64,000 bases of DNA from Halanaerobium saccharolyticum (GTDB lineage: Bacteria > Bacillota > Halanaerobiia > Halanaerobiales > Halanaerobiaceae). The stretch spans positions 1 through 64,000 of the forward strand of contig NZ_QLME01000014.1 of the NCBI RefSeq assembly GCF_003259895.1, written 5' to 3'. The position numbers and the translations under genes are program-made. The notes beneath the pieces were generated by a model, which saw only the letters and a program-made list of their open reading frames with translations, was not told where the DNA came from and did not search any database. Each line of letters begins with the position of its first letter. Position 1 is the stretch's first letter. This document shows, piece after piece, positions 49,005 through 59,189 of this stretch.

Positions 49005-49637
49005 TTAGTTGAAAGCAATCTCACTCACATAATCAAATTCAAGCTCAACAATCTCAGCGGCAGCCGGCCAGACAATTATTTGCTGCCCACCCAGATTTGC
49101 CTCAATATCAGAAGCATTATTGCGTCTAATTAAAAAGATATCCTCTCCACTCAGATATTCAATAGTAGTTAAATTGTTATAACTAATATTTAGGCTGCCC
49201 AGAGAAGTATTCACACTAATAGAATTATCTACTGTACTGGCCGAGAAAAAGTCTCCATTTCTTAGACTTACTGAAATCTGGGTATTATCATTAAATGCAT
49301 TACTATTAGAAAAATCAACACTGCTGATTTCTGAAGCAGCAAAAGTCTGTTCTCCTCCATTTGCCAGAAAAGTAATATCAGAAAGTAATTGGCCGCTAAA
49401 CCTATTGCTGGCAGAAGCTCTGATCACAAAATTTCCATTTGCCCTATCTATTTTATTGATATACTGGCTCTGAAGATTTAATTCGGCATAAGAAGTCTGC
49501 AGAGTTAAACTTGAATTCTGGACATCTCCCCTGAGCTGCTGTCCATTTTGAAGTTCAATCTGATCTGCAAAAACAGCCGGACTCAGCATAACTGCTATTA
49601 AAAACAGCAGGATAAAAGCAACTAAATGTTTTTTCAT
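49005..49637 (-). CDS. Secreted beta-rich protein of unknown function
   Basis: A 210-residue protein with a signal peptide (about 1-25, AVMLSPAVFADQ). The mature part is a series of short beta strands with repeated LxNGxxxxG turns (IELQNGQQLRGDVQN, SLRNGDFFSAS, ITFLANGGEQTF) and a second type of unit (LTLQTSYAELNLQSQYINKI and VNTSLGSLNISYNNLTTI), which alternate. It is rich in Asn, Ser and Gln and has no Cys after the signal. I do not recognise a named family. The start at 49637 follows GAGGGGGAG. It lies downstream of a small holin-like membrane protein and before the Wzz gene in the opposite order of reading. Confidence 0.7.
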   Translation of the reverse strand: MKKHLVAFILLFLIAVMLSPAVFADQIELQNGQQLRGDVQNSSLTLQTSYAELNLQSQYINKIDRANGNFVIRASASNRFSGQLLSDITFLANGGEQTFAASEISSVDFSNSNAFNDNTQISVSLRNGDFFSASTVDNSISVNTSLGSLNISYNNLTTIEYLSGEDIFLIRRNNASDIEANLGGQQIIVWPAAAEIVELEFDYVSEIAFN

Positions 49638-49671
49638 TTTTTTCTCCCCCTCACAAAGTTCCCTGGAAAAA

Positions 49672-50013
49672 TTATTCTTCAAACATGCTGTGTAAAATAC
49701 TGGAGACAAAACTAACAATTATCGAAGCAATTAAAGCTGAAAAGAAACCGCTGACTGCAAAACCTGGAACTAAAACAGAGGTTAAAGCCAGCATGATTGC
49801 ATTGATCACCAGTAAAAATAGGCCAAAAGTTAAGATTGTAAAAGGAATGGTCAGGATTGTAAAAATCGGTCTGATAAACCCGTTAACAAAACCCAGGACT
49901 ACTGCTGCAAAAAATCCAGCCCAGACACCGGTCACTGTAATTCCCGGCAGTAGATAAGCCGCCACTATAAGAGCCACCATTGTAGAAAATACTTTTGCAA
50001 AAAAATGAGACAT
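49672..50013 (-). CDS. Phage-holin-family / YvlD-like membrane protein
   Basis: A 113-residue membrane protein with four helices. GFVNGFIRPIFTILTIPFTI is the signature of the YvlD-like group (Pfam phage holin family 4 / superfamily IV). These are chromosomal and not phage genes; YvlD in Bacillus takes part in envelope stress. The start at 50013 follows GGAGGAA. It may be cotranscribed with the secreted protein 35 bases downstream. Confidence 0.85.
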   Translation of the reverse strand: MSHFFAKVFSTMVALIVAAYLLPGITVTGVWAGFFAAVVLGFVNGFIRPIFTILTIPFTILTFGLFLLVINAIMLALTSVLVPGFAVSGFFSALIASIIVSFVSSILHSMFEE

Positions 50014-51446: not shown

Positions 51447-51977
51447 ATAAGCTGGGAAAATTATTTTATCAGGCAGTGTGTCAAACACTGCCCTGTAGAT
51501 TGTATTACTATCAATGATCAGGAAAGCACAATCAATCATCAAATCTGTATTGGCTGTGGAGAATGTGTTGTTACCTGTCCCACAGATGCAATTGCTGTGG
51601 AATGGGAATCCACCAGTGAAGGAATGGAAGAACGTCAGGTAGAATTCACTTATGGTATTGTTAAAGATAGAAAGAATATCTATCTCAATTTTATCACTAA
51701 TGTTTCTCCTGACTGTGACTGTGCCGGCTGGAGTGATCGCCCGATCGTTAATGATATCGGGATTTTAGCCTCTAAAGATCCGGTTGCCCTGGAGCAGGCT
51801 TCCCTGGACCTGGTTAACAAGGCTGAACCAAAGGGAATGCTCGAAGATCGAGATTTAGAGCCTGGAGAAAATAAGTTTAAAGCAGTTCATCCCAGTACTG
51901 ATGGAGGAGTAAGGCAGATTGACTATGCTGCTGAAATCGGAATGGGCTCAAAAGAATATGAATTGATTTCTCTGTAA
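51447..51977 (+). pseudogene. DUF362-type iron-sulfur protein, 3' fragment
   Basis: From 51447 the frame reads KHCPVDCITINDQ and then CIGCGECVVTCPTDAIAVEW, a ferredoxin-like pair of cluster motifs, followed by the C-terminal half of DUF362 proteins (GIVKDRKNIYLNFITNVSPD, NDIGILASKDPVALEQASLD). The N-terminal part is absent: upstream the frame has a stop at 51444, and traces in another frame (SESLVNKLGKLFYQAV) suggest a shift near 51475. The ATG at 51597 is internal to the ferredoxin domain, so the 126-codon frame is not a full gene. The repeat element C lies at the broken end. Confidence 0.78.
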
Positions 51978-53296: not shown

Positions 53297-56200
53297 TTAA
53301 TCCTCCAATTTGACTTTAAATGTTTTGATTTCATAGGGCTTTATTTCAAACTCGAAATAATAATTTTCAGCTTCAATTTCCCTGCTGTTTTCTTCAACTA
53401 AATTACATTCACTGACTTTTTTCAGCTCTCGCCCCAGATCAACTCTAACTTTTTCTCTGCGGCTGCCGTATTCATAAAATCTCAAGATCAAATCATCACT
53501 GGTTTCTGCTTTTTTAACCGTTTCTAAAATGGTACTCTCTGCCTCAACTTCTATAAATGATTTCTGCTGTGGCTGCTCACCAGATTGACTCTGAGTAATT
53601 ACTGTCTGGAGAGGATAATTTAGCTCATAGGCTTCTTTTGCAGTCTCTGCCTCAAACCAGTCACCACCATGGGGATAGATGCTGTAGGTAAAGCTGTGCG
53701 GGCCCTGATCTGCCTCTGGATCGGGATCAACCCCTGATTTAATCAGACTCAGCCGCATTGTCTGGTCTTTAATATCATGTCCATATTTACAGTCATTTAA
53801 AAGACTAACTCCATAATCTCTTTCGGAAAGATCTACCCATTTCTGGCCCACAGTTTCGAATTTAGCGTAATCCCAGCTTGTATTCCAGTGGGTGCTCCGC
53901 TCAACATTTCCAAATTGAATCTCATAAGTAGCTGTCGTACTGCGAACATCCACCGGAAAAGCAGTTTTTAGCAGAATCTGCTCTTCCTGCCAGTCTATAT
54001 CTGTTTTAAAATCTATTCGCCTCTGATTGGCATAAACAATCAGCTGCTGTGAAATTGTAGAATCCAGAAACTTCCATTCCAGATTAACAATTATTCTATC
54101 ATCTATTTTGTCTATTTTTAGCTGCTGCAGCTGGTCAACTATATATTCCTTTTCCTGATAGTAAATATCGATATCCCAGGCATTATAATTCATTGGTCGA
54201 TCCTCAAATGCCTGCAGCAGGTTGGCTTTTTTACCCTCAGGGATTATTTCTCGCTGAAACTCGCGGTCGTAAATTGAAGTAATCTGTCCCTGCTCATTTA
54301 ATTTTATCCGATAATATCTATTTTCTATCAAGTTTTTCTCTACTTCTGTTTTCAGAAGATTTCTTTTGCTGCTGGCCCCAGCCGTCTGAGCCTTACTTTT
54401 GGCAATTAAATAATTTATCTGGCTTTTTTTGAAATCAGCTTCTTTTTGAGCCTCGATTTCAGCTTCCAGTTTTAGACCTTCACTGCTTTCTACAATATTA
54501 TAGGCTTTATAACCGCTGGCAGGAACATCGTCAATCATAATTTCTCGTCCATCAAATTTGATATAATCCGAGCGCTGCCAGGGCAGAGAATTAAAAACAA
54601 CCAGCTTCTTTTCTGATCCCTTTATCTGGGCTGCAATTTTCTCTAAGCTGCTGTTTAAAAGACTTTCTGTACTTGCAAAAAGTTCTTTAAATTCTGCTGC
54701 ACTATCCTGATAGACTTCTTTGATTGAAGATCCGGGAAGAATATCATGAAATTGATTTTTAAGTAAAATTTCCCAGTTTTCCTTCAGATTTTCAGCCGGA
54801 TAATCCAGATCAGCTTCTAGAGCGGCAAAAGACCTGAACAACTCTGTGTCATGGAGTATAATTTCTGCTTTTCTATTATTTTTTTTGATTTCAGCCTGAG
54901 AGGTATAGGTACCCCGGTGATATTCCAGATAAAGCTCACCATCCCAGACGGGCAAATCCTCATTCTCACTTACTCTTTCTGCCAGCCTGGCAAAGTAAGC
55001 TTCAGCACTGCCAAATTTAATTTTAGGCAGGCCTGGAATCTGCTGCATATTTTTGCCTGCTTCAATCATTTTGCGGGTTGGACCCCCTCCACCATCACCC
55101 CAGCCGTAAGCCAGGAGAAGCTCGTCATTAATATCTTTCTGTTGATAATTATCCCAGCTGCCTTTAACAGACTCGGGATCTAAAAGTCCATTGTAAGTGT
55201 AGAAAGACTCGTCATTATTGACTTCAGGTGTTGTAATAAAATGGGTTAGAACTTCGGTGCCGTCAATTCCCCGCCAGTTAAAGGTGTCATATTCTGGCCG
55301 ATTAAACTGACTCCAGCTAATTTTAGTGGTCATAAAATACTGCATCCCGCTTTTTTTAATAATCTGGGGCAGGGCCCAGGAATATCCAAAAACATCAGGC
55401 AGCCAGAGTATATTCCACTCCAGATCAAATTCTTCTTTAAGGAATCGCTGCCCGTGTAAAAATTGTCTGACCAGAGACTCACCCGAAGTCAGATTGCAGT
55501 CAGCTTCAACCCACATTCCACCGGTAACTTCCCAGTTACCTGCTTCAATTTTTTCTTTAATCCTGGCGTATATTTCCGGATAGTCTTCTTTAATAAATTT
55601 ATATAGCTGAGGACTTGACTGGACAAAGGTGTAATCTGGATATTCATCCATTAGTTTTAAAACTGTAGAAAATGTCCGGGCAGTCTTTTCCCTTGTGTGC
55701 AGCAGCCGCCAGAGCCAGGCTACATCAATATGAGAATGTCCAACTGCTGTTAGCTGAGGCAGATTCGACTCTGACTTCAGCTCTGCCAGTGAATCTTTAA
55801 GATATTGATTGGCTTCAGCTGCCGACTGCAGAAATTTAGCTGAACCCGGTTTCCTAAAATCAATCAAATTAAAGGCCTGATTAAGTCTGTTTAAAAGTTT
55901 ATGCCGCAAATTTTCACCTGCAGCCATTGTTTCTATAGATTGACTTAAAGTCTCAGCCAATCTGTAAAACTCTTCTATGTTTTGATCTCTAAAAACTAGA
56001 GCAGCTTTTTTAAACTGCTGCTTTTCTGATCCGGGACCGCTGAAAGCTTTAACTGCTATTTCTAAGTTTTTATTTTCTAAGTCTTTTCTGCTTAACTTGA
56101 CCAGGGAGTGATTGCGGTCCAGTCCCTGTAAGGGTTTTTCGTTTAAATAAAGCAGTGATTCAGCTCCATTTAAACCTCCAGAATGGCCCCGGCCGGGGAT

Positions 56201-56464
56201 GATTTCTAAATAAATATTCCCCTGCAGTTCTTTCCAGCTATCAGGTACTTCAATCCCAGCCCTAAACCAGCAGCTTTTATCTTTCCCTCCCCAGCTTTCT
56301 CCCACCTTAAAATCTTCTCCTGCAAGTTTTGTAAAATCAGGCAGAGATTTATTCTGAAGGCTGGCTGGATATTTTTTGAATTTTTCAATTGCTATTTCTT
56401 TCTGGTTTAAGACTGATTTTAAATCTTTTAAATATCGTTCAATTTTTCCTGCTTTAAAAAACAT
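53297..56464 (-). CDS. Alpha-mannosidase, GH38
   Basis: A 1055-residue GH38 enzyme. The N-terminal domain is followed by the catalytic domain with the zinc-binding AVGHSHIDVAWLWR near residue 240 and the nucleophile Asp in GGMWVEADCNLTSGE near 320. A helical bundle and the C-terminal beta domains follow to the end. It lacks a signal peptide, so it acts in the cytoplasm on imported manno-oligosaccharides. The start at 56464 follows AAAGGAGTG; the longer frame begins 27 codons earlier in AT-rich spacer. No mannose transporter is nearby. Confidence 0.94.
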   Translation of the reverse strand: MFFKAGKIERYLKDLKSVLNQKEIAIEKFKKYPASLQNKSLPDFTKLAGEDFKVGESWGGKDKSCWFRAGIEVPDSWKELQGNIYLEIIPGRGHSGGLNGAESLLYLNEKPLQGLDRNHSLVKLSRKDLENKNLEIAVKAFSGPGSEKQQFKKAALVFRDQNIEEFYRLAETLSQSIETMAAGENLRHKLLNRLNQAFNLIDFRKPGSAKFLQSAAEANQYLKDSLAELKSESNLPQLTAVGHSHIDVAWLWRLLHTREKTARTFSTVLKLMDEYPDYTFVQSSPQLYKFIKEDYPEIYARIKEKIEAGNWEVTGGMWVEADCNLTSGESLVRQFLHGQRFLKEEFDLEWNILWLPDVFGYSWALPQIIKKSGMQYFMTTKISWSQFNRPEYDTFNWRGIDGTEVLTHFITTPEVNNDESFYTYNGLLDPESVKGSWDNYQQKDINDELLLAYGWGDGGGGPTRKMIEAGKNMQQIPGLPKIKFGSAEAYFARLAERVSENEDLPVWDGELYLEYHRGTYTSQAEIKKNNRKAEIILHDTELFRSFAALEADLDYPAENLKENWEILLKNQFHDILPGSSIKEVYQDSAAEFKELFASTESLLNSSLEKIAAQIKGSEKKLVVFNSLPWQRSDYIKFDGREIMIDDVPASGYKAYNIVESSEGLKLEAEIEAQKEADFKKSQINYLIAKSKAQTAGASSKRNLLKTEVEKNLIENRYYRIKLNEQGQITSIYDREFQREIIPEGKKANLLQAFEDRPMNYNAWDIDIYYQEKEYIVDQLQQLKIDKIDDRIIVNLEWKFLDSTISQQLIVYANQRRIDFKTDIDWQEEQILLKTAFPVDVRSTTATYEIQFGNVERSTHWNTSWDYAKFETVGQKWVDLSERDYGVSLLNDCKYGHDIKDQTMRLSLIKSGVDPDPEADQGPHSFTYSIYPHGGDWFEAETAKEAYELNYPLQTVITQSQSGEQPQQKSFIEVEAESTILETVKKAETSDDLILRFYEYGSRREKVRVDLGRELKKVSECNLVEENSREIEAENYYFEFEIKPYEIKTFKVKLED

Positions 56465-56546
56465 TATTTTCACTCCTTTAATATAATCAATATATCTATT
56501 ATTAATTGAGACATTAAAATTCTGATAAAATATTATAAAACTCAAA

Positions 56547-57074
56547 TTACATTATACTAGTAAATTTATTTAAAAAATAATTTATTGATTTATTTTTTTG
56601 AACTGCAGTTTCAATTGAAAAGATTTTTAATACTTCTCTCATAAAATCAATTCTCGAATCGTATTTAGTTGCTATCAAATCATTAAAATCTTCTTTAAAT
56701 AATTCATCAGTGTTCTTAAAACTTTTAATCCCAAGGCTATTGCTTGACTCTCCATCTAATCCTGCAAGATACCAGCTTTCAATTTCTTTTATTACCACAA
56801 TTATTCTATTAAAAGCTAGATAATCAAAAGTCTCTAAAACTTTCCGTTTCTTTTCAATAACACAATTGTTCTCATCCAAATCCCCAACAAAAAAATAATC
56901 GGCTCCCATAGAGTTTATACTAGCTATAAATTTTTTAATATTCTTATATTTTTGCTGAGCATATTGCCAGATAATTATATGATCATAATCATCTTTAAAT
57001 AGTGGTTTAATTATTTCATTAAAAAATCTTTCATCATCATTGCCTTCTACCAAAATATATAATCGCTTATACAA
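56547..57074 (-). CDS. TOPRIM-like protein, partner of the upstream ATPase
   Basis: A 175-residue protein. LYILVEGNDDERFFNE near the N-terminus supplies the acidic Glu and YFFVGDLDENN near residue 70 the DxD pair of a TOPRIM fold; RIIVVIKEIESWYLAG near 93 adds another acidic site. This layout is seen in the nuclease part of OLD-family and related defence ATPases (DUF4276/DUF4435-like), here as a separate gene. It starts 4 bases after the ATPase gene, so the two form an operon. It has no strong ribosome site of its own (the ATPase stop region GGGGGTGTAG serves). Confidence 0.72.
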   Translation of the reverse strand: MYKRLYILVEGNDDERFFNEIIKPLFKDDYDHIIIWQYAQQKYKNIKKFIASINSMGADYFFVGDLDENNCVIEKKRKVLETFDYLAFNRIIVVIKEIESWYLAGLDGESSNSLGIKSFKNTDELFKEDFNDLIATKYDSRIDFMREVLKIFSIETAVQKNKSINYFLNKFTSIM

Positions 57075-57078
57075 AAAG

Positions 57079-58356
57079 CTACACCCCCAGCAAATTTTGT
57101 ATATATAAATCGTCTATACCCATGTCATTATCTAAAAATACCTGCACTTCCTTTTTCTCTACCGGTTTTGTGATTTTAGAAAACCCGTCTGGATCACGAT
57201 GGACTAAAAAAAGATTCCGCAGATCAATATATTTAATCAGTTCTGGATTATGGGTGGTGATCAAAATTTGCTTATTTGCCGATGCATCAACAAACATATC
57301 AACTAATTTAGAAATCAAATGGGGATGAATATTTCTTTCCGGCTCCTCAATTATTGCGATTTTTTTATCTTCAAAATAAAGTGCAATCACCAGAGCAATT
57401 GTACTAATTGTTCCATCAGAAAGAATTGAAGCTGGAATATATTCTTTTTCCGAATATTCTTCTTTAAGTTTAAATAGTAAGGATTTATCAGCAAATTTTT
57501 CTATATCAATATTATTGACAAACGGCAGAATATCTTTTACAATATTAGTAAATTTCCTTGCTTTGTTCCTATTTTCTATTATATTTTTTAATACAATTGC
57601 CAGATTCTCACCATCTTCTTCTAATTCAGCTTTTCCAGTTATTGGAGTTGCTTTTTTAGATAATAGTGGATTAATATTATAAATTGAAATCCCACCTAAA
57701 ATTTCTCTGAGTGATCTCTCAATAATAAAAGCAAAGGGAGTTTCTAAAATCAATTCTTTACTAGATATTGAAATTTCTTCGACAAAGGAAGGTAAAATAT
57801 TTTCGCGATTAATTTCTATTTGATCAGTTATTAAAGTATCTTTATTTATTTTAATATCAAGATTATTATTATCTTTCAGTAATGTTAGGATTACTTCTCC
57901 CAGTTCTTTTTGGTTACTGGTTTTTTCTGCAATTTTATTCTGCTTTTCTACTTCGTAATATTTAAATTTTAAAGTTAATTGATCTTCTATAACTTTATAA
58001 TCTTCACCATTAAATTCAATTGCAAACTGATATTTGCTTTCGTAAGCTTCTCTACAGAGCAAATTATTCTCATTTTCTTTTTCAATTTTCTGTATATTGG
58101 GGCGATCAAAAATTATTTCTAGCTTAAGCGGCTGTTGATCTCCAATCTTAATATTTCTGAGATATTCTACTCCCCCCTGCATAGAAATGGCATTGCTCAA
58201 ACCACTTTGTATAATATCTCTGATAAAATCAAATACCTGAATAAAACTTGACTTCCCGGCTGCATTGGCGCCAATAAAAACATTAAATTGATTTAGTTCA
58301 ATTTCAAGTTCTCTAAAACTTTTAAAATTAGAAACTTTTATTTTTTTTATTCCCAC
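57079..58356 (-). CDS. AAA ATPase of the OLD/SMC type
   Basis: A 425-residue ABC-like ATPase. IKKIKVSNFKSFRELEIEL opens the domain, Walker A is GANAAGKSS near residue 32, the signature is LSDGTIST near 318, Walker B is IAIIEEPERNIHP near 340 and the switch His is in ILITTHNPEL near 370. A helical insert (about 100-290) lies between. With the TOPRIM-like gene that follows it makes a two-gene set like OLD-family or PARIS (AriA/AriB) defence pairs. The C-terminus has no TOPRIM domain itself. The genes are AT-rich, and both flanking genes are housekeeping. Confidence 0.82.
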   Translation of the reverse strand: MGIKKIKVSNFKSFRELEIELNQFNVFIGANAAGKSSFIQVFDFIRDIIQSGLSNAISMQGGVEYLRNIKIGDQQPLKLEIIFDRPNIQKIEKENENNLLCREAYESKYQFAIEFNGEDYKVIEDQLTLKFKYYEVEKQNKIAEKTSNQKELGEVILTLLKDNNNLDIKINKDTLITDQIEINRENILPSFVEEISISSKELILETPFAFIIERSLREILGGISIYNINPLLSKKATPITGKAELEEDGENLAIVLKNIIENRNKARKFTNIVKDILPFVNNIDIEKFADKSLLFKLKEEYSEKEYIPASILSDGTISTIALVIALYFEDKKIAIIEEPERNIHPHLISKLVDMFVDASANKQILITTHNPELIKYIDLRNLFLVHRDPDGFSKITKPVEKKEVQVFLDNDMGIDDLYIQNLLGV

Positions 58357-58454
58357 TCTAATCCCTCCTGCCTGGCAAGGCTTAATAGATACAGCAATTT
58401 TAATTATTTTAAATTATAATCTATTACCTTTATTATATCACAACAAGAAAAAAA

Positions 58455-58478
58455 TGACAGCTCCCGGAGGGACTGCCA
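58455..58478 (-). terminator. Terminator of cysE
   Basis: TGGCAGTCCC and GGGAGCTGTCA form an imperfect stem on the minus strand, followed by a T7 run. Confidence 0.8.
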
Positions 58479-58495
58479 TTAAGATTAAATCTATT

Positions 58496-59152
58496 TTAAC
58501 CTGCATCTTCAAATGAATCTTTATTTAAAATTTCCTGCTTTAATTTTGTAAATTCTTTTTCTAATTCTAAAAGTTGATCGCGAACTGGATCCGGTAAATC
58601 GGCATGAGCTAAATCTCTTTCTGGATGAACTCGGCGGCCATCACGGGTCACAACTCTACCGGGGATACCGACAACTGTAGAGTTTTCATCTACATCTTTC
58701 AAAACTACAGAACCAGCACCAATTTTTGCATCATCACCAATTGTAATGCTGCCGAGCACTTTTGCGCCAGCTCCAATAACAACATTATTGCCGATAGTGG
58801 GATGTCGTTTGCCTCTTTCTTTACCAGTTCCGCCAAGAGTGACACCCTGATAAAGGGTTACATTATCGCCAATTTCAGTGGTTTCTCCAATCACTACTCC
58901 CATCCCGTGATCAATAAAAAAACCACAGCCAATCTCTGCACCTGGATGAATTTCAATTCCCGTTAAAAAGCGGGCCAGCTGTGAAATCAAACGGGGAATG
59001 GTCCTCAGGCCTTTACTGTACAGCCAGTGTGAAAAACGATGAAACAGCAGTGCATGCAGACCTGAATAGGCTAAAATCACTTCCAACAAATTATCAGTTG
59101 CTGGATCTCTATCAAAAATTGCGTTAACATCGCATTTTAATCTTTTAAACAT
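58496..59152 (-). CDS. cysE: Serine O-acetyltransferase
   Basis: A 218-residue hexapeptide-repeat acetyltransferase. The helical N-terminal domain (about 1-60) is short as in Bacillus-type CysE; the left-handed beta helix runs from [20 protein letters not shown] near 65 with the catalytic His in this segment, and [19 protein letters not shown] near 105 is the family signature. It acetylates serine for CysK. The start at 59152 follows GGGGGTG. No T-box motif was seen in its leader of about 145 bases. Confidence 0.94.
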
Positions 59153-59189
59153 TAATTTTACACCCCCAAAGATCGACAAATAGTTAAGT

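Follow-up and report, generated by a model that had tools for sequence, protein, structure and literature searches.

A stand-alone OLD-family ATPase–TOPRIM gene pair beside cysE in Halanaerobium saccharolyticum, a probable anti-phage module

The coupling of an OLD-family ATPase to a TOPRIM protein has been described in several systems. In PARIS, for example, the separate TOPRIM protein AriB is held by the ABC ATPase AriA; a phage protein sets AriB free, and tRNA cleavage follows (PMC12409363). By the published rule, this system is recognised from an ATPase matching AAA_15 (32 bits) or AAA_21 (27 bits) and an adjacent DUF4435 protein (27 bits) (PMC9122126). In class 1 OLD proteins, both domains are found on a single chain, and related OLD TOPRIMs and GajA, the class 2 protein of Gabija, cut DNA (PMC10568477). 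Another example is HEC-01, a defence candidate catalogued by PADLOC, in which an AAA ATPase is accompanied by a small TOPRIM/DUF4276 protein; no experimental study of HEC-01, nor any useful paper on DUF4276, was found in the literature searched. OLD-ABC dyads whose nuclease is a TOPRIM protein or of another type have been presented as backup effectors in a BREX survey of 2026 (PMC12839542). Outside this context, the OLD-family protein Cran1 of the Sulfolobales has been reported as an essential protein with a link to the cell cycle (PMC12796447).

A gene pair that most likely belongs to this known theme of OLD ATPase–TOPRIM dyads, as kin of candidates already catalogued, is present in Halanaerobium saccharolyticum (Table 1). 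It lies within the window, that is, the whole stretch of 64,000 nucleotides that was analysed (contig NZ_QLME01000014.1). The initial annotation had reported two ORFs four bases apart between unrelated metabolic genes, and both are located there. The TTG start of the downstream TOPRIM gene follows the ATPase stop after 4 bases, a start and an adjacency also kept in the Halanaerobium orthologues. One flank holds cysE and purD, and the other a mannosidase-like gene together with one for an aldo-keto reductase. The pair had also been described as an AT-rich insert. Its AT-richness is clear, with a GC content of 0.25 and 0.29 in its two genes against 0.40–0.46 in the neighbours, and a GC3 of 0.19 and 0.21 for the pair against 0.28–0.44; a recent insertion is contradicted by the sharing of the site within a clade and by a dS of about 1, like that of cysE. 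When the two intact Halanaerobium copies were compared, dN/dS was 0.08 for the ATPase and 0.10 for the TOPRIM gene, so both genes are real and were held by selection where intact.

Table 1. Features of the gene pair and its flanks in window positions; motif coordinates (Walker A) are arithmetic from the ORF coordinates.
Feature	Position	Strand	Remarks
cysE (serine O-acetyltransferase)	58496..59179	-	upstream neighbour, left flank
Promoter-like site CTGTCA-17-TATAAT, TG before second hexamer	58432..58460	-	after cysE 3' end; consensus match only
OLD/SMC-type ABC ATPase	57079..58356	-	425 aa, GTG start, no TOPRIM of its own
Walker A GANAAGKS, residues 29-36 (GANAAGKSS 29-37)	58249..58272	-	G29, N31, G34, K35, S36 invariant, 10-row alignment
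ABC signature SDGT, residues 313-316	57409..57420	-	invariant, 10-row alignment
Walker B and catalytic Glu, IAIIEE, residues 333-338	57343..57360	-	E337, E338 invariant, 10-row alignment
Switch-His TTH, residues 367-369	57250..57258	-	invariant, 10-row alignment
ATPase C-terminal tail FLDNDMGIDDLYIQNLL, residues 407-423	57088..57138	-	conserved in alignment
Small TOPRIM-like protein	56547..57074	-	175 aa, TTG start; partner, presumed nuclease effector
TOPRIM Glu10 (LVEG)	57045..57047	-	invariant, 8-row alignment
TOPRIM DxD, Asp65-Leu-Asp67	56874..56882	-	invariant, 8-row alignment
Family motif KEIESWYLAG, residues 96-105	56760..56789	-	K96, E97, E99, S100, W101, Y102, L103, A104, G105 invariant, 8 rows
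Alpha-mannosidase-like gene	53297..56545	-	downstream neighbour, right flank; mannosylglycerate hydrolase model, below its cut-off

The TATAAT-containing sequence that follows cysE is also found at the empty site of another Halanaerobium genome (G008). The promoter-like site was therefore not carried in by the pair, which appears to have been inserted into the leader of the downstream gene. An sbrA match at 58448-58528 falls under the Rfam gathering threshold and was treated as chance, and no Rfam match at that threshold was obtained for the locus. Defence-island neighbours had been proposed as a check; none of the genes next to the pair was recognised as a defence gene, and the site is no defence island. 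Elsewhere in the window, two ORFs near cysK (51597-51977, 126 aa, and 49005-49718, 237 aa) gave no NCBIfam match.

The ATPase matches AAA_21 (4.3e-27, 96.4 bits) and AAA_15 (2e-20, 74.2 bits) of Pfam, and the full set of Walker, signature and switch-His motifs first noticed in it is conserved in 10 relatives. Its structure model reached a pLDDT of 69.5 and a pTM of 0.73, and the 50 best solved folds listed for it all come from immune proteins (GajA, PtuA, OLD and retron ATPases). The conserved C-terminal tail occupies the position of the linker that precedes the TOPRIM domain in single-chain OLD proteins, and it may serve as a docking element for the TOPRIM subunit.

The TOPRIM-like Glu and DxD originally pointed out in the small protein hold up well, Glu10, Asp65 and Asp67 being invariant in all eight members of an alignment of relatives at 35–70% identity. 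In the same members, the motif KE(I/M)ESWYLAG is nearly invariant. The small protein passes the cut-off of the Pfam family OLD-like_TOPRIM (PF20469; 25.6 bits for a cut-off of 23.2, and 26.5 bits in the genome search), and it weakly matches DUF3226 and DUF4276. The score for the latter (PF14103) is 16.3 bits for a cut-off of 30.2, so DUF4276 was not adopted as a formal label. Moreover, the TOPRIM profile alone found OLD TOPRIMs at an E value of 0.0022, against 0.16–0.88 for the controls. The lack of a TOPRIM fold had been named as a possible refutation. The TOPRIM assignment is favoured by these sequence tests; the AlphaFold2 model, built from a four-row alignment, is of low confidence (pLDDT 55), and its predicted order of strands and helices is TOPRIM-like, with the Glu after strand 1 and the DxD after strand 3. 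Foldseek searches with this model gave no significant match, with OLD TOPRIM domains at ranks 43 and 47, and phmmer and profile searches of the PDB gave no credible relative.

The relation between both genes and OLD nucleases was addressed by joining the ATPase and TOPRIM alignments and scoring them against OLD proteins in which both domains share one chain, drawn from related genomes. The ATPase profile alone scored 156.2, and the ATPase followed by the real TOPRIM 176.1, whereas controls with the TOPRIM placed first, reversed or with its columns shuffled eight times remained at 155.5–156.7. The joined alignment runs continuously through Walker B, switch-His, linker, gene junction, Glu and DxD. 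Since the score increases with the real TOPRIM only, the pair is laid out like an OLD nuclease divided into two genes. The reading as a split OLD nuclease, suggested in the initial annotation and apparently cut at the ATPase/TOPRIM boundary, is thus well supported by sequence comparison.

Among catalogued systems, the closest kin of the pair is HEC-01. The best PADLOC models for both proteins are those of this candidate, HEC-01A for the ATPase (2.8e-51, 172.8 bits, residues 3-410) and HEC-01B for the small protein (7.8e-9, 33.8 bits, residues 43-172, a score read without PADLOC's own thresholds). Gene order and size range are also alike, and Glu10, Asp65, Glu99 and Trp101 are common to the window protein and to the Escherichia coli and Meiothermus partners. 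In contrast, the two models give 602 and 331 bits for a canonical member encoded in a BREX operon on an E. coli plasmid; the window pair stands alone, with DUF4276 under the cut-off. It looks like a divergent branch near HEC-01, and strict membership is not claimed. With PARIS, in which the ATPase holding the TOPRIM subunits is a hexamer, the pair shares the combination of an ABC ATPase and a separate TOPRIM protein, and its AAA_15 and AAA_21 scores pass the published thresholds; however, the small protein is shorter than AriB, and DUF4435 is not among its matches up to an E value of 1, nor among those of the eight family members up to 0.1. The PADLOC AriB model matches two of these eight members (best 2.1e-5). 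The early comparison with PARIS consequently stands for the layout and perhaps for the mechanism, and membership is rejected for want of DUF4435. The pair agrees with class 1 OLD proteins in its domains and their order, and is collinear with them across the junction, although two ORFs replace the single chain. GajA is among the nearest ATPase folds and has the same domain order; Gabija was discarded because no UvrD-like GajB helicase is adjacent, the neighbours being cysE and the mannosidase-like gene. A retron (OLD class 3) was likewise discarded, with no reverse transcriptase among the neighbours and no Rfam match at the gathering threshold. The best NCBIfam match of the ATPase is MAD3 of MADS (2.1e-44), and mad4 weakly matches the small protein; MADS membership was rejected, as MAD3 scores 152.3 bits for a cut-off of 420 and no other MADS genes were seen nearby. 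Finally, the PADLOC candidate PDC-M07 combines a related ATPase with a small partner gene, the partner being PIN-like (by a weak Pfam match) and not TOPRIM; in this swap, a related sensor carries another effector.

The cysE site was compared in 12 Halanaerobium genomes, with the window as G000. The pair is sporadic, being intact in two of them (G000 and G004), damaged in three (G001, G003 and G009) and absent from seven, against the possibility, previously raised as a refutation, of a housekeeping pair conserved at this site in all relatives. Empty sites were seen in G008 and G005; the gene right after cysE is that of the mannosidase in the former and the aldo-keto reductase gene in the latter. 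In G003 and G009 the ATPase is intact, and the TOPRIM gene has lost about residues 23-87, with a shift of frame. In G001, only blocks of both genes remain after several clean internal deletions; the surviving blocks (L047, 2280-2820, in the cysE-forward orientation) are still near the intact copy, which argues for decay by deletion and not by point mutation. The tree and a dS close to 1 between clade copies, as for cysE, indicate that the clade of G000, G001, G003, G004 and G009 acquired the pair once, long ago, or retained it, and that decay followed. Selection on the ATPase after loss of the effector was considered from the comparison of G003 with G009 (3 nonsynonymous and 8 synonymous codon changes, a constrained pattern at first sight) and was not used as evidence; the differences are clustered in one tract, with none in the TOPRIM remnant, which suggests recombination.

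Outside Halanaerobium, the pair was found in two genomes of the same order and in one WOR-3 MAG, and a sample of 398 genomes of the phylum gave full-length TOPRIM matches in three further genomes, two of which, from one genus, share a site; the other settings differ. The gene order is the same in distant genomes despite unrelated contexts, and ATPase and TOPRIM distances across eight pairs are strongly correlated (Mantel r 0.94; 1 of 5000 permutations). In the WOR-3 MAG (L028:7235-7700) the ATPase is open. Its TOPRIM partner seems truncated by a frame-shifting deletion within the gene, the tail motif KNDSFRYF lying in another frame, although an assembly error is possible. A further copy sits on an IMG/VR phage contig of 40.6 kb, between ssb and other phage genes; at an E value of 1e-5, no TOPRIM relatives were obtained from plasmids or reference phages. 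More distantly related ATPases, each with a small partner of the DUF4276 type, are placed between pglX and pglZ in an E. coli plasmid BREX operon, next to type I restriction genes in Meiothermus, in an SNF2-methyltransferase cluster of Aeromonas and on a small Acinetobacter plasmid. On an Acinetobacter plasmid (L100:3167-4988), a related ATPase is accompanied by a PIN-like partner (PDC-M07B) instead of a TOPRIM. In another genome of the phylum, inspection by eye suggested an AbiEii-like nucleotidyltransferase some 5 kb upstream of the pair (L071:670-1329).

The pair is probably (at roughly 0.7) a stand-alone two-gene immune module, in which an OLD-family ABC ATPase gates a minimal TOPRIM nuclease against phages, probably by abortive infection. 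The putative anti-phage role initially suggested draws support from the family, the structural neighbours of the ATPase, carriage by a phage and the defence-operon contexts of more distant relatives; the lack of a defence island at the site counts against it. In the proposed mechanism, the ATPase would oligomerise, bind the TOPRIM subunit and keep it inactive or aimed, until a phage cue alters the ATPase. The TOPRIM subunit would then cut nucleic acid by two-metal chemistry via Glu10 and Asp65/Asp67, the putative substrate being tRNA, as for AriB of PARIS, or DNA, as for OLD/GajA, and the phage would be blocked, probably through arrest or death of the infected cell. Lesions restricted to the effector fit a costly effector, though in only two independent cases, one of them from a MAG. 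On the other hand, persistence at one site throughout a clade (dS about 1) makes the pair less volatile than many defence genes and counts against a defence role, as do the poor fold model of the TOPRIM, the candidate status of HEC-01 itself and the 33.8 bits of the small protein with HEC-01B.

Within the defence reading, the collinearity with single-chain OLD, the OLD-like family as best Pfam match of the TOPRIM and the DNA cleavage by related TOPRIMs (PMC10568477) could point to a GajA/OLD-like nuclease that nicks or degrades the DNA of both phage and host and is controlled by nucleotides, and not to a released tRNA nuclease. This alternative, which concerns the mechanism and not the role, is tentative, since the two-gene layout is that of PARIS, the AriB model finds some family members and the helicase partner of Gabija is absent. 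It is doubtful that the pair constitutes a distinct, minimal and widely scattered system with its own substrate or trigger, apart from PARIS, Gabija and canonical HEC-01 and carried also by phages against rivals.

An addiction module resembling toxin-antitoxin systems, in which the ATPase restrains a toxic TOPRIM and selfish persistence needs no specific phage trigger, would agree with lesions that hit the effector alone and leave the ATPase open, as in G003/G009 and, it seems, WOR-3, and with the occurrence of related pairs next to VapBC or RelE/ParE genes on small plasmids; it is unlikely as the primary role, given that the ATPase is built like immune ATPases and that distant relatives occur within BREX and restriction operons, and both roles are not mutually exclusive. 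The small size of the TOPRIM-like protein, well below that of AriB, and its weak fold model would also suit a catalytically dead regulator of the ATPase, which is distinctly improbable with Glu10, Asp65 and Asp67 invariant in eight of eight members and a dN/dS of 0.10. Cellular roles can exist for OLD-family proteins, as the precedent of Cran1 suggests (PMC12796447), and this too counts against defence; a function in DNA repair or the cell cycle would accord with the low dN/dS and the clade-wide persistence at one site, but it is very unlikely for a pair absent or damaged in 10 of 12 Halanaerobium genomes (7 and 3, respectively), rare in the phylum sample and borne by a phage.

As an immune module, the pair would be a very small two-gene form of the OLD ATPase–TOPRIM theme, simple enough for reconstitution, and it favours the idea of a single family, made up of PARIS-like dyads, HEC-01, MADS3/4 and single-chain OLD nucleases, whose effector can be split off or swapped. 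The roles of both parts are directly testable with the natural copies in which a broken TOPRIM accompanies an intact ATPase and with the phage-borne copy. About 3 kb downstream of the latter, the phage contig encodes a 315-aa protein (L045:8380-9327) with an N-terminus that by eye is TIR/nucleoside-deoxyribosyltransferase-like, possibly a second defence gene.
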